From: a virus
IMG/VR virus record: IMGVR_UViG_3300025108_000203
Span: 1 to 33,549 of that record
Reading direction: 5' to 3' (one strand)
Length of the DNA stretch: 33,549 nt
Shown here: positions 17,463 to 29,314 of the stretch, piece after piece
Numbering within the stretch: the first letter of the stretch is position 1
Layout of the letters: every line of letters starts with the position of its first letter
The notes under the pieces: model-generated
What the model was told of the DNA's origin: nothing
Databases searched by the model: none
The model's input: only the letters and a program-made list of their open reading frames with translations
Position numbers and translations under genes: made by a program

Positions 17463-18281
17463 TCACACAGACAAACCCGCGTCCTTTAGGGCTTTAAGTT
17501 GTGCGTCTGTCAGTTCCTTCTTTTCACCCGCATCTGCTGTGGGAGGGGCAGAAACTTTTTTACCGGGAACACCGGCATCAGCAGGAAGAGCAGCTAAACC
17601 TTGCGGTGTTCCAGCCTCTAACCTTTTGGGGTTTTGATCGATGAACGAGGTTTTGATCTTTTCGTGATCTTCTCCCATAGGAAGCTCGACCAGATTAGAA
17701 CCGGGGATAACAGCTCGTAGTGCAGACGCCACGAGATCTGCTGAAGCTTCGAGCCAAGCTCCAACGTCTTCGATGAGTTTTTTCTCATCATCGTTCTGAG
17801 CCGGACGGTCTTTGAACTCTACGACGTTGTAGTTGATTTTTGCTCCATCAGCTCCTGTCACAGGATCACGCTCATTGAATGATCGCTGTACAAATTTCGT
17901 AGAAGTAATTACTTCTCCTACATTGATCCTGTTGTTGTAGAGCGTTTGAAAATACGAGATAAAGTTTTTTTGAGACGATTTGCCGCTGATGATGCTAGTA
18001 CAAACGCATCGTGGAGGTAGTAAACGATGAGAAGGCGTGACACCAATGTAAGAAATACGAATAAACTCTTCATGCGTCCGCATTCCGAGGTTGCCGAAAT
18101 ACGGTGTGAAACCAAGAAGGATGAACTCAATCGGTATCCCATTGTCGTTCGTGTCGGTGATCGCAGAGTCCGGGTCATTATCGGATTTCCAGCGACGTGC
18201 TTGAAGATCGATGCGTAACGTGTGCGGTGGTAGTTGACAGAGAATTTCTTCTGCATTGAATTTGCCAGCGATAAATACCAT
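17463..18281 (-). CDS. Hypothetical protein linked to the SSB-like gene (272 aa)
   Basis: A 272-residue protein from ATG 18281. The first 190 residues are a mixed alpha/beta domain with a Cys pair (RCVCTSIISG). The last 80 are Pro/Ala/Lys-rich and end in a short helix (DAQLKALKDAGLSV), typical of a flexible tail with a docking tip. It follows the SSB-like gene by 17 bases and both are terminated together, so it may be an accessory replication or recombination factor. I do not recognise the family; a DUF5895-like relation is possible but unproven. Confidence 0.7.
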   Translation of the reverse strand: MVFIAGKFNAEEILCQLPPHTLRIDLQARRWKSDNDPDSAITDTNDNGIPIEFILLGFTPYFGNLGMRTHEEFIRISYIGVTPSHRLLPPRCVCTSIISGKSSQKNFISYFQTLYNNRINVGEVITSTKFVQRSFNERDPVTGADGAKINYNVVEFKDRPAQNDDEKKLIEDVGAWLEASADLVASALRAVIPGSNLVELPMGEDHEKIKTSFIDQNPKRLEAGTPQGLAALPADAGVPGKKVSAPPTADAGEKKELTDAQLKALKDAGLSV

Positions 18282-24718: not shown

Positions 24719-26248
24719 TTACCTGATTGATTTTTGAAAAAGATTCGCACTATAGGAATCATTTTCTATATCTACTGGATAAACTTGATCACTAAATTCT
24801 TCCAAACTATCCGTAGCATTATCTCCGATACAAAAACTCGTCCATTGAAAACCGTGCTCCTCTTTTTCTCGTAATAATCGTTTAATAAAAGCATGCGGTG
24901 TATCGGACTGACCGTCAGTAATCATCAAAACATCTGCTTTGTTTTTTATTGTTTTCTTTTGTACCGCATGGTCCAGTACACATCCGAATCTTGTACCCCC
25001 TCGCGTTGTCCAAGTAGCTATAAAATCTATAAGCTCCATATTAGTTTGTCTGTCTTTATCTAAGACTATGCTCTGCTGGATCTCTGTGTCAAACAAATGA
25101 ATTTCTATTGCTCTATGCTGTTGCATGCATTCATTAGCTACCACAAGAGAAATAGCTTTTGCCCATGTTTCCCTTTGACCAAGCATCGAACCACTCACGT
25201 CGATATACATAACTACTGAACCTTTCTCTAGTTCTTGTATTTTTGCCTCGTATTCTTTCACGAGTAGAGTTTTTTGTTGAAGTTTTAAAGCGAACAAAGC
25301 CTTACCTCCTCGTGTGGCAGCTAAAGCAAGCTCAACCGGAAAAGCTTTTGTTACTTCGTCAGAAAACTTTGCGCCCACAATTTCGTCATAATTTGTCCCA
25401 TACCTAACAGCTCTTTTCCTAGTACTCCATGCTTTTTTGAGAGCACCAAGTCTATCTATGACAAGCATAAGCCCTTTGTCCTTTGATAGTTTTTTAGCTA
25501 ACTCTTTCTTTTCACTGAGGTCATTACCAAAATAACCAACTCCCGTTTGATCTCCGAAAGAATCAAGCCCTTTCTTTAATTGATCAGCTTGTTGTTTTGC
25601 TTTTTTAACTATTTTTTGTACTGGTTCTGTAATTGTTTTGTTTGCTTTGCTAGCTAATTTTTCTAACCGCTGCCCAAGCTCTTTTCCCCGTTTTTTTATC
25701 TCCGCAGCTTTATGACCATCACCTTTAGCTACTGATTCTTTAAAAGTTTCTCTTGTTATCTCTAAGTCATCTGCAATTTGTTGAATATCTTTTAACTGTT
25801 CTGAACGTTCGTTGATTTCTTCGGCAATATTATTTGTGATATTGATCGCAGTGTTACCTGATAAGATCTGATCTCCTCCGGTCATCACTTTGAGTTCTTC
25901 CCACCAAGGAGATTCAATAATGTTGATAAAAAGCTGAACCCAAAATGAATTTTCTGGTTTATATCCGACAGGTAATTTTGGTTGTTCTTCATCTTCTAAA
26001 GCTATGTGATAACTTTCATATTCACTTACATCAAACAAAGTGTCAACATCCCCACCTTTATAAAGAAAATCAAACAGCTCTTTGCCTAAGCGAGAGATTT
26101 GCTTAATGTTATGTACTTCCTCTATGTATGTGACAAGTGGATTTCTATCTCTAACAAAGTCACTCCATAAAAAATCAGTGAGAGCATTAACTTTCAAGTA
26201 AATTGGTTCGTCGTTCGTCAGTTGAATAAAGTTCTTAGCTTTTGTCAT
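24719..26248 (-). CDS. ViaA-like VWA-domain protein (509 aa)
   Basis: The C-terminal 170 residues form a von Willebrand A domain with a complete metal-binding MIDAS: D350-x-S352-x-S354 in YIDVSGSM, Thr419 in TRGGT and Asp445 in MITDGQ. The segment before it (FPVELALA, then LQQKTLLVKEYEAKIQELEK) resembles the ViaA family linker, and residues 140-230 are a long charged helical region. ViaA-type proteins pair with a RavA/MoxR ATPase encoded beside them, as here (ATGA overlap at 26245). They are thought to present substrates or modulate the ATPase. E. coli ViaA is a little shorter (about 480 residues). Role in the phage is inferred: adaptor of a remodelling complex. Confidence 0.85.
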   Translation of the reverse strand: MTKAKNFIQLTNDEPIYLKVNALTDFLWSDFVRDRNPLVTYIEEVHNIKQISRLGKELFDFLYKGGDVDTLFDVSEYESYHIALEDEEQPKLPVGYKPENSFWVQLFINIIESPWWEELKVMTGGDQILSGNTAINITNNIAEEINERSEQLKDIQQIADDLEITRETFKESVAKGDGHKAAEIKKRGKELGQRLEKLASKANKTITEPVQKIVKKAKQQADQLKKGLDSFGDQTGVGYFGNDLSEKKELAKKLSKDKGLMLVIDRLGALKKAWSTRKRAVRYGTNYDEIVGAKFSDEVTKAFPVELALAATRGGKALFALKLQQKTLLVKEYEAKIQELEKGSVVMYIDVSGSMLGQRETWAKAISLVVANECMQQHRAIEIHLFDTEIQQSIVLDKDRQTNMELIDFIATWTTRGGTRFGCVLDHAVQKKTIKNKADVLMITDGQSDTPHAFIKRLLREKEEHGFQWTSFCIGDNATDSLEEFSDQVYPVDIENDSYSANLFQKSIR

Positions 26249-27429
26249 AATGAAAACTTAGCAATAGATTTTGTAATAGAGCTTTTTAGGTTTACAAGTT
26301 GACGATTTAGTTTTACTGCATTTCCAGCAGTTTCTATGCTTATCTTATACTTCCCCGTTTCTGTGATTACGCTTAGTTTCTCTTCAAGAGTCGAGAGATC
26401 TCTATGAAGCTTTCGTAGCTTTACAACTGTTGTATTAAGAACAGCAAGCGTATCCCCTGCTGTTTCGAGCGCGTGGTATTCCGAATATATACCCGAGTGA
26501 GCTTGTTTGATCCCTAACAACAATTTGTTTGCAGTAGGGATTATTTGATCTAAACAATCTTTAATAACTTCAATGTCTTCTACGTCTCTATAAACAATGT
26601 GGATAAGTGAATTGTGTAAATGCTCAGAGACTAACTCAGTGTCACCCTGAACGATTGCCCAACCCTTCATAAACTTTAAAATCTGCACTCTTCGTCGATC
26701 ACTAACCTGAATGCCTCTTCCAGCCAGTGTTGCCATAACTTGGTGAAAATTATCTAAAAACTCATCATTAATTTCAATAGAACTAATTTCCTCTTGGAGC
26801 GATAGCAGATCTCCGTAACATAGTTTTGATTCGGAAACTGGTCTTGGTTCACCGACACCTAATGCCCAGCGATCCAAAGATCTTTTTGATGTTGGCTTCC
26901 TTAAAAAGTCAACCGTGGGCCTGAACAGAAATCTATCGCAAAATGCTTGAAGAGATTCCTCTGATGGAAAAGAGTTTGTAGCTGCGACAATCGATTGAAT
27001 CGGTGTCTTGATTACTTCTTTTCCGTTATTAAAAGTTCTTTCATTCAAGATGGTGAGTAGTGAGTTTAGAACTGACGAACTACCGCGAAATAATTCATCT
27101 AAAAAAGCAATGTTGGCCGAGGGTAAGTATCCGTCAACGTCTCGGGTGTACTCGTCTTCTAGTAATTTTGAGATAGCTACAGGACCAAAAAGTTCTGATG
27201 GATCTGTCGTAGGAGAGAGGAGATAGCTAAAAAATTTAGAACCATCAAATCCTTTCGATACAGCTTGTACTAACTCAGACTTACCAGTACCTGGAGCACC
27301 AAACAAAAAAGCATTTTGACGGGTAATCAAAGAAGCTAAAAGCCCATCGATAACATCTTCTCTCTCTAAAAATCTGGCATTCAGAGACGCACGAAAATTT
27401 TGTAGATTGGCGAAGGTTGTTTTGTTCAT
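26245..27429 (-). CDS. RavA-like MoxR-family AAA+ ATPase (394 aa)
   Basis: A AAA+ ATPase of the MoxR/RavA branch: Walker A GAPGTGKS (44-51), Walker B IAFLDE (107-112), sensor 1 AATN (Asn152) and an arginine in DRF (Arg166). The core order FGPVAISKLL, GYLPSANIAFLDELF, SLLTILNERTFNNG follows E. coli RavA closely by eye. Full RavA is about 500 residues and ends with a LARA domain that binds LdcI; this protein stops at 394 with only helices after the AAA+ module, so that domain seems lost. Such ATPases act as ring-shaped chaperones with a VWA partner. It starts two bases after the preceding gene. Confidence 0.9.
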   Translation of the reverse strand: MNKTTFANLQNFRASLNARFLEREDVIDGLLASLITRQNAFLFGAPGTGKSELVQAVSKGFDGSKFFSYLLSPTTDPSELFGPVAISKLLEDEYTRDVDGYLPSANIAFLDELFRGSSSVLNSLLTILNERTFNNGKEVIKTPIQSIVAATNSFPSEESLQAFCDRFLFRPTVDFLRKPTSKRSLDRWALGVGEPRPVSESKLCYGDLLSLQEEISSIEINDEFLDNFHQVMATLAGRGIQVSDRRRVQILKFMKGWAIVQGDTELVSEHLHNSLIHIVYRDVEDIEVIKDCLDQIIPTANKLLLGIKQAHSGIYSEYHALETAGDTLAVLNTTVVKLRKLHRDLSTLEEKLSVITETGKYKISIETAGNAVKLNRQLVNLKSSITKSIAKFSL

Positions 27430-27431
27430 GA

Positions 27432-28628
27432 TTAGAAATCCACAGAGTCGTCAGGTGTGCTGTCTGCTATTAAAGAATCGATGTCAGTATTTCGAGCAGA
27501 CAATAGTTCAGTTCTTTTAGTAAAAAGATTTTTTAACTGTCTAGCTCGTTGCACATAAATCGTTTCTTCTAAATTAATTCTTCTTTCTAGCTCCTCTAAC
27601 TGATGAATTTCTTCTGTAGAAGCGATAGCGTTAATTAAATCACCATAAGTGTTAGAGAGACTTAAAGAATTTTGAAGAGCTTCAAGACCTTTGGTGCTCT
27701 TCCTGTTGTCGATGATTGTCTGAGCTTCTTCTTTAATTTGATCTTTCAGATTCATATACTCCACATAAGCATCTTGCCTCTCGTGGATATGAGCTGACTG
27801 TAAGCGTTTACCTACAGTCAAGAGATCCTTTGTGAGGTTAGTTAGTTCTTCAAAACCAACGCAGTGCTTTGAGATTAGTTCTAAATTCTGCGCTGTGATT
27901 TGCCAAGAACCTCTGCGAACCGAGCCGCCAGTCTGACGGTCGCCAACTTTAGTTCCTGATCTAACATCCAAGTCATCAAGTAGTTGTGCTGTAATGTTTA
28001 ATGCTTTATCTGCTGCTCCTTCTTTGGCAGCGTCCAAAACTTCTGTAGTGTTTAAGAAGGCTGCTTCCTGAATCCGAGCCTGCGGATTGCTTGGATCAGT
28101 CACTACACTCATGCTCACGGGATTTGGTCCCACAACATATACCTGAATAGCGTTTTGAATCTCTTCCTTGGTAGGAAATAGTGTCATGTATGCACTATGA
28201 GCTAAACGAGCTTCTGTAGAACCCTCATCAAACATCGTGTTGATCAGAGTATTAACAGTCTCGGACCATTGAGCAAACTCGACTGACCAAGTCTCTTGTA
28301 GTTGATGGTTATACTCTTTAGCTAAGCTACGGATGTCATAGATCATCACCATTGCCTTATCAAAATGATCAGCATGGAGAAAGTGAATATCCCCCTTGTT
28401 AATTGCACACTCGTCATAGAGTGCTCTCTGTTTTGTTCTAAGGTCACATAAAAATTCTTTTAGCGTGTTCGACAAAACCGATCGGATCGGTACAGAGTTT
28501 CGCTCTTTAAGAACGTCTACGACAACCTCAGGCAAATTCAAGTCTTTAAATTTGATTTGAGCGCTCTGCCTAACAGAAGCAGATATGGAGCAATGGATTA
28601 GAAAGAGTTCATTAATCATGGTGTTCAC
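27432..28628 (-). CDS. RavA-ViaA cassette protein, possibly DUF3150-like (398 aa)
   Basis: A 398-residue, almost wholly helical protein with start GTG 28628 overlapping the upstream stop (GTGA); ATG 28619 is possible. The N-terminal half (DLRTKQRALYDECAINKGDI, FAQWSETVNTLINTMFD, AYMTLFPTKEEIQNAIQVYV) resembles the shape of DUF3150 proteins that sit beside CobS/MoxR-type ATPases. The C-terminal half contains coiled coils. I infer a partner or substrate adaptor of the AAA+/VWA pair; the DUF3150 link needs a profile search. There is no membrane segment or enzyme motif. Confidence 0.7.
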   Translation of the reverse strand: MNTMINELFLIHCSISASVRQSAQIKFKDLNLPEVVVDVLKERNSVPIRSVLSNTLKEFLCDLRTKQRALYDECAINKGDIHFLHADHFDKAMVMIYDIRSLAKEYNHQLQETWSVEFAQWSETVNTLINTMFDEGSTEARLAHSAYMTLFPTKEEIQNAIQVYVVGPNPVSMSVVTDPSNPQARIQEAAFLNTTEVLDAAKEGAADKALNITAQLLDDLDVRSGTKVGDRQTGGSVRRGSWQITAQNLELISKHCVGFEELTNLTKDLLTVGKRLQSAHIHERQDAYVEYMNLKDQIKEEAQTIIDNRKSTKGLEALQNSLSLSNTYGDLINAIASTEEIHQLEELERRINLEETIYVQRARQLKNLFTKRTELLSARNTDIDSLIADSTPDDSVDF

Positions 28629-29050
28629 TTAATGCGACGGAAAGATGTGATGACTTTGGCTGTAACTAAATCGATTGCTCCTTTGAGTGAAAGCTTTGTC
28701 ACTAAGTGCTTTCGCTCTTCTTTCGCAAGCTTGAGACTTAACTCAAGTTTCTCAATCTTTTTATCGACTGCTTCAAGACTTTTGTGAGCCGTGGGAAGTT
28801 TATCGATCCGAACGACAATGTTTGTGCGAAGGTCTGCAAACTTAAAAAGCGATTGGTCTCCTTTAAATTGTGAAAGATCAATACCAGTAGAGTCTGCAAG
28901 CTCAAGCATAGAAGTCAATTGATTTCTTGAAGCTTCGTAAGTTTTCCCAAAGCCATCATGTAGCTCGGCTAGTGCTAGGTCGCACTCATCGAATCGTTCA
29001 GCTGCAAGTCTTCCCTGTTTAAGAAGCTTACTGGTTGTTACAGGAGTCAT
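28625..29050 (-). CDS. First protein of the RavA-ViaA cassette, coiled coil (141 aa)
   Basis: I choose ATG 29050 (MTPVTTSKLLKQGRL) because the promoter at 29108-29136 would start RNA near 29101, leaving a 50-base leader; a GTG at 29098 would have almost none. The protein is helical, with a coiled coil toward the C-terminus (LEAVDKKIEKLELSLKLAKE) and a basic end. It overlaps the next gene by four bases. I do not recognise its family. Position one in the cassette suggests an essential partner of the ATPase system or a scaffold that bridges to its target. Confidence 0.7.
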   Translation of the reverse strand: MTPVTTSKLLKQGRLAAERFDECDLALAELHDGFGKTYEASRNQLTSMLELADSTGIDLSQFKGDQSLFKFADLRTNIVVRIDKLPTAHKSLEAVDKKIEKLELSLKLAKEERKHLVTKLSLKGAIDLVTAKVITSFRRIK

Positions 29051-29107
29051 GTTTTGTAATGAGATAGGATGGTGCGCCACGTTATAGGTCGGTGCCACCT
29101 GATGAGA

Positions 29108-29136
29108 ATTGTACGTGATCTAACGCATGGTGTCAA
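29108..29136 (-). promoter_or_regulatory. Strong sigma70-type promoter of the RavA-ViaA cassette
   Basis: On the minus strand TTGACA (plus 29131-29136), a 17-base spacer, and TACAAT (plus 29108-29113) match the consensus at all but one position. Transcription should start near 29101. The DNA further upstream (about 29140-29270) is AT-rich and has no gene. It is the best promoter in the window. Confidence 0.85.
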
Positions 29137-29270: not shown

Positions 29271-29298
29271 AAAAAAAACCAAGAATAATTTCTTGGTT
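29271..29298 (-). terminator. Intrinsic terminator after dcd
   Basis: Minus-strand AACCAAGAA-ATTA-TTCTTGGTT gives a perfect nine-pair stem with a four-base loop, running into a T-run (plus A-run 29271-29278). It ends the transcript that contains dcd and the small genes to its right, and isolates the downstream cassette. Confidence 0.9.
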
Positions 29299-29314
29299 CC
29301 TTACTTGTTTAAAT

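Follow-up and report, generated by a model that had tools for sequence, protein, structure and literature searches.

The stretch of DNA considered here (the window; 33,549 nucleotides of an IMG/VR virus contig with endolysin and virion-protein genes) raises the question of what a phage does with a MoxR-family ATPase and a VWA protein whose genes are preceded by two further genes. A first-pass annotation had described four coupled genes, and all four are present as described, on the minus strand (Table 1). They encode a coiled-coil protein (CC), a helical protein (HEL), the ATPase, to which we refer as the motor, and the VWA protein. The HEL and motor genes are 2 nt apart, and the motor and VWA genes overlap by 4 nt. 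The start codons listed are the most likely ones, as predicted from alignments and the promoter, and for CC they agree with the position first given; the alternatives are a longer GTG frame for CC from 29098, immediately behind the promoter, and a GTG at 28628 for HEL. Elsewhere the window encodes ThyX, a primase, an exonuclease, a PolA-like protein (631 aa) and a dCTP deaminase.

Table 1. Positions of the genes and predicted signals of the operon in the window
Feature	Position	Strand	Description
CC	28625..29050	-	Coiled-coil protein, 141 aa; operon gene 1; ATG start at 29050 (most likely)
HEL	27432..28619	-	Helical protein, ~395 aa; DUF3150-type by fold; ATG start at 28619 (most likely)
Motor	26245..27429	-	MoxR-family AAA+ ATPase, 394 aa; RavA/bpMoxR half, without LARA
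VWA	24719..26248	-	VWA protein, 509 aa; N-terminal helical/coiled region, C-terminal VWA domain with complete MIDAS
Promoter	29108..29136	-	Sigma70-type, TTGACA-17-TACAAT, 11/12; before CC
Leader element	29070..29102	-	AGGT-GGCACCG-ACCT-(AT)AACGTGGCGC; covarying short hairpin, expected transcript 5' end
Terminator-like hairpin	29273..29302	-	Hairpin and T run between the dCTP deaminase gene and the operon; consensus match only

A four-gene unit in uncultured phages

A scan with the motor only gave 22 viral loci; the HEL alignment matched 111 stretches and the VWA alignment 172, and the best 80 of each were kept. With profiles for all four proteins, we found at least 164 loci in which the CC, HEL, MoxR and VWA genes follow one another in that order on one strand. 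These IMG/VR loci comprise at least 88 distinct complete quartets, the window's included, and order and strand are identical in 88 of the 88 recovered. Because there are this many distinct quartets and the complete ones all share the same arrangement, the quartet is a real unit and not a product of chance, and the two extra genes belong to the same unit as the pair that they precede. The first-pass annotation had taken a four-gene neighbourhood conserved in many phages as the sign of a system, and this is what we observe. The neighbours of the quartet vary and the quartet stays constant; for example, the dCTP deaminase gene moves.

Incomplete quartets lie mostly at contig ends. One locus (L075) is missing CC, and a 45.8-kb fragment (L136) has the MoxR and VWA genes with neither HEL nor CC. 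Among bacterial relatives of the motor, a VWA gene is mostly next, but HEL and CC are not found. L136 and these bacterial pairs, which manage without the two proteins, count against the reading favoured below.

In 13 of 87 quartets, two additional genes (~72 and ~230 aa) lie between HEL and MoxR, e.g., in L005:7055-7925, L008, L015, L089, L101 and L171. Their products had no Pfam match where tested, and they are possibly optional subunits. Small ORFs with an 'ITPPPEL' motif also occur beside the MoxR gene (L100:7325-7645, L103:8569-8913 and L136:1776-4741), and among phages they match Synechococcus phage S-H1 most closely.

The carriers of the quartet are a large uncultured phage group, distant kin of a Synechococcus phage. 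Of 50,697 phage records, only Synechococcus phage S-EIV1 matched the portal protein of an 84-kb record collinear with the window (G002), with 42.6% identity, and several other window proteins match S-EIV1 as well. A picocyanobacterial host is therefore likely. S-EIV1 itself does not have the quartet.

Relationships of the four proteins

The motor has Walker A (GAPGTGKS, residues 44-51), Walker B (FLDE, 109-112), sensor 1 (ATN, 150-152), DRF (165-167) and SDRR (243-246) motifs, which are invariant or nearly so across 47 relatives, in agreement with its initial description as an AAA+ ATPase with all catalytic motifs. It was also described as RavA-like, and this holds for the side of the family on which it falls. 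Trees of the AAA+ core place it in the RavA/bpMoxR half with 100% support, the same branch that splits it from CobS, MRP-type MoxR proteins and the motors accompanying bacterial DUF3150, and its PDB matches are RavA chains only. However, it is not RavA proper; with the RavA model, it scores 130.3 bits (1e-37), missing the equivalog cut-off of 681 bits, and in a quick tree it lies outside the clade of E. coli RavA (support 100). It groups there with the MoxR protein of Aphanizomenon phage CL131, itself a long branch. The RavA model match stops at position 304 of 498 and no LARA domain was found, so the region after the AAA+ module is indeed missing. Matches labelled as Campylobacter phage A11a and as Salmonella or Escherichia phages resemble bacterial ravA, and we did not count them as phage relatives. 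The A11a record (MG065691.1; L194) contains part of a bacterial chromosome, with E. coli-like genes around a ravA-viaA-type pair, and contamination is the probable cause.

The motor passes the gathering score of PF20030, bpMoxR (2.5e-55; 187.2 bits against a threshold of 27). This family takes its name from the MoxR-vWA ternary conflict systems that Kaur et al. reportedly described in 2020, and the match raises the idea that the quartet is such a system, used by the phage against competitors. We regard this idea as quite improbable. No effector, VMAP, iSTAND, FtsH or beta-propeller gene was found among the four, and gene content is uniform, with no effector turnover.

Given a MoxR motor with a VWA protein, a cobaltochelatase-like CobS/CobT pair that boosts cobalamin synthesis must also be considered, as phage CobST pairs are commonly interpreted as cobalamin-related (PMC8651126). 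The first-pass annotation had named this identity as the one that would overturn its own reading. However, neither CobS nor CobT models occur among the NCBIfam and Pfam matches of the motor and VWA protein, down to E 1, the motor matches phrog_249 at 3e-5 only, and CobS is on the far side of the 100% branch. Profiles and tree thus rule out this identity for the pair, and the chance that the operon serves cobalamin synthesis appears negligible.

The VWA protein is ViaA-like and its MIDAS is intact, as first reported: 58 sequences show no variation at D350-x-S-x-S, T419 or D445. Its match to ViaA (2.3e-11; 43.6 bits) misses the equivalog cut-off of 500 bits, and its gene lies downstream of the motor, as with ViaA. 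For the N-terminus, where ViaA has a VAN-fold domain, model confidence is modest and no PDB match was seen. In CbbQO, it is through its MIDAS that the VWA protein binds to a carboxylate on the rubisco surface (PMC4660213), and ViaA is an adaptor of RavA (PMC10585395). By analogy with these two systems, a motor with a VWA adaptor would be the expected working arrangement.

The first-pass annotation considered the remaining two proteins unfamiliar. This still applies to CC, for which no family scored above chance in Pfam, PHROG, NCBIfam or PADLOC. Its homologues within quartets are 32-58% identical. Its PDB matches, including the designed propeller Tako8, are short or of low complexity, and we discounted them.

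HEL, on the other hand, resembles DUF3150, a family to which the annotation had itself pointed. In a Foldseek search of BFVD with the AlphaFold model of HEL (pLDDT 87.8), a phage protein with the name DUF3150 ranks first (E 6e-5). Eight matches have a probability of 1.00, with E up to 5.5e-3, and are followed by a gap to 0.2. TM-scores to the DUF3150 models are 0.4-0.5. Foldseek found no solved fold below E 0.15 in the PDB, a value that serves as the background for a helical model. The HEL-DUF3150 profile-profile score is 33.5, compared with 16.8 +/- 2.6 (maximum 25.7) for 100 block-shuffles. Because the reversed control reaches 28.5 and the hhalign probability is 17%, sequence alone would not prove the link. 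None of the 49 HEL members scanned reached the gathering score of the Pfam DUF3150 model (PF11348), and we therefore do not claim membership of that family by sequence.

A second resemblance concerns the C-terminus. The final residue of HEL is F in 90 of 90 distinct sequences, and the preceding one is D in 88 of them; the tail before this -D-F is poorly conserved. Bacterial chromosomal DUF3150 proteins likewise end in Phe or Trp behind a long variable linker (approximately 14 of 15 distinct sequences). One of four plasmid examples, from Xanthomonas, has no terminal aromatic residue. As a background, F or W is the last residue in about 7% of local ORFs.

The third resemblance is in gene company. 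Every bacterial DUF3150 locus that we opened has an adjacent VWA gene, and nearly always a CobS-like motor too. In nine gammaproteobacterial loci, the VWA gene is beside DUF3150 in all nine (in L243, the assignment rests on a start resembling the other VWA starts), with a same-strand CobS-like motor in eight; in three that we checked, the VWA protein is CobT-type by Pfam. DUF3150 matches also occur in 1,167 plasmid records. In the four annotated plasmids (IncC, a Xanthomonas plasmid, a Klebsiella plasmid and R997), ssb and a lambda-type or PD-(D/E)XK exonuclease gene lie beside the set, and bet/recT is annotated in three. The stretches shown around these genes are not cobalamin operons. Plasmid sets adjoining ssb-bet/recT-exo were seen in L268-L271. 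One gene of a plasmid set (H83) is annotated 'cobalamin biosynthesis protein', which is doubtful because of its gene company.

Fold, tail and gene company together make a good case that HEL is a distant DUF3150-type protein. In the literature searched, neither DUF3150 itself nor a RavA-side pair with such a partner was the subject of any paper. A point against the reading favoured below is that, elsewhere, DUF3150 is partnered with CobS-side motors, not RavA-side ones.

Promoter, leader and genomic position

The promoter in front of CC ends 57 bases before the ATG. At least nine of 12 positions match in 60 of 82 distinct upstream regions, and the regions before HEL, MoxR and VWA have promoter scores no better than shuffles. 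The pattern TTGAC[AT]-17-TANNNT has a single site in the window and two in G002, this one among them. Because about 1.2 such sites are expected by chance, the argument for the promoter is carried by its position and conservation.

The leader element between promoter and CC is aligned in 35 distinct leaders, in which a short hairpin around an invariant GGCAC is followed by AACGYGGYGC. Its stem covaries (C-G/T-A/G-C and G-C/A-T/C-G), with 135 stem pairs compared with 108 +/- 4.3 (maximum 124) when the arms are shuffled. When viral contigs were scanned for the loop pattern, a stem of 4-6 pairs was present in 44 of 44 matches with CC or HEL downstream. Of the 35 other matches, 33 have 0-2 pairs, and the two with five are both in quartet contigs (L338 is on the same contig as L159). 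Among the viral contigs scanned, the hairpin thus occurs only in front of the quartet operon; besides the window, carriers include L027, L041, L106, L123 and others. No Rfam family matches the element, so it is not identified with a known riboswitch, and it is a candidate new cis-regulatory RNA, perhaps a small riboswitch or a site of autoregulation. We claim only the hairpin; a pseudoknot between GGCAC and GGYGC was rejected, as in 11 of 32 sequences the facing A would have to pair with C. One subgroup of quartets (L010, L011, L014, L019, L022, L023, L139 and L172) has another leader but keeps the promoter. Some of these leaders have GTGAT/ATCAC repeats upstream of CC.

The quartet is on the replication strand, between the dCTP deaminase and PolA genes, with the exonuclease and primase genes further along. 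Replication genes dominate one strand anyway, and operon position is weak evidence of function. In the same module, a 272-aa protein (17463-18281, minus strand) is among the best conserved unknown genes; it is 76-88% identical in relatives and has no PHROG match.

These observations bear on the proposal that the pair is a chaperone that folds or assembles tail or capsid proteins. There are precedents for this: the MoxR-VWA pair p618/p892 of ATV is associated with tail development (Scheele 2011, as cited in PMC7911831), and an assembly role has been proposed for MoxR-VWA proteins of jumbo phages (PMC7824862). Archaeal virus motors are also detectably related to the quartet's. However, the operon is part of the replication module, its promoter is of the housekeeping type, and the terminase (TerL), portal and tail-fibre genes seen in G002 are on the opposite strand. 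Moreover, DUF3150-type relatives occur in conjugative plasmids, which build no virions. Overall, we consider virion assembly improbable.

Proposed role and relation to known systems

The reading that we favour, with a little more confidence than doubt, is that a MoxR-VWA machine produced early, and fitted with a DUF3150-type adaptor, remodels a phage replication/recombination nucleoprotein complex. Two parts of this reading are well supported: the genes make up a single operon, and the machine encoded is an ATP-driven protein remodeller of the MoxR-VWA class. Host RNA polymerase would transcribe this operon early. The RavA-side MoxR protein would be the motor, expected to be hexameric, and the VWA protein would couple it to the target, with an acidic ligand held at the MIDAS metal site. 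HEL would be a third core subunit, most likely the substrate adaptor. Its variable tail, which ends in -Asp-Phe-COOH, could be recognised as a peptide by either the MIDAS site or the motor. CC would be a phage-specific coiled-coil accessory. ATP hydrolysis would then remodel the adaptor-bound target, and a phage replication/recombination complex would probably be remodelled or unloaded. We give this particular target roughly even chances. The operon's position, its promoter and the company of DUF3150 in plasmids favour it over virion assembly and over host respiratory enzymes.

A host-directed machine would instead act on a respiratory or metabolic enzyme, RNA polymerase or a defence factor. 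RavA-ViaA acts on fumarate reductase, and the quartet has a RavA-side motor with a ViaA-like VWA protein; an early-type promoter would also fit host takeover. Yet the LARA domain, which in RavA binds LdcI, is absent, and no defence-system model matched convincingly. In addition, no relative of HEL was detected in 84,980 bacterial and archaeal genomes with a search that needs conserved short peptides and misses remote relatives. We think a host target unlikely.

If the preferred reading, a machine for replication or recombination complexes, is compared with known systems, MoxR-VWA pairs in phages are already known, and 'CobST' pairs are widely annotated. The novelty, as far as the literature searched shows, lies in joining a DUF3150-type protein to a RavA-side motor and its VWA protein. 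In ATV, a viral MoxR motor (p618/p892) also works with a VWA protein, but this is an archaeal spindle virus, the process is tail development and the sequences are remote. Moorella phage MTATph1 and Aphanizomenon phage CL131 are tailed phages with adjacent MoxR and VWA genes, and the CL131 motor groups with that of the quartet; however, both lack HEL and CC homologues, and their motors are ~31-33% identical. The bpMoxR (PF20030) MoxR-vWA systems of Kaur et al. 2020 share the motor domain family, but the quartet has no beta-propeller (none is fused to VWA) or other named third component. RavA-ViaA of E. coli, which provides the motor's best PDB and NCBIfam matches, has the same MoxR motor and downstream VWA protein with a MIDAS. 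The quartet differs in being phage-borne, in lacking LARA, in having a motor outside the RavA clade and in its two extra partner genes.

The triad of CobS-like, DUF3150 and CobT-like proteins, in IncC plasmids, R997 and chromosomes, shares with the quartet a motor, a DUF3150-type helical protein with a C-terminal aromatic residue, a VWA protein and adjacent DNA-metabolism genes. Its motor and VWA protein are of the CobS/CobT side, no CC gene was found, and the likeness of HEL is at fold level only. We tentatively suggest, without considering it the likelier outcome, that a MoxR motor, a DUF3150-type adaptor and a VWA protein might be a general mobile-element machine that remodels replication/recombination complexes, with the motor swapped between CobS and RavA lineages. 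If so, the machine would span plasmids, integrative elements and phages, and would include many of their genes, in phages and plasmids, that now carry the label 'CobS/CobT, cobalamin synthesis'. The findings also call into question the routine vitamin B12 reading of phage and plasmid 'CobST' genes. The near-invariant C-terminal Asp-Phe of HEL offers a concrete handle with respect to the MIDAS site. Through this comparison, a MoxR-VWA operon that had lacked an explanation in a large group of uncultured phages gains a candidate third core subunit, and is linked to a module that is common in conjugative plasmids but unstudied.
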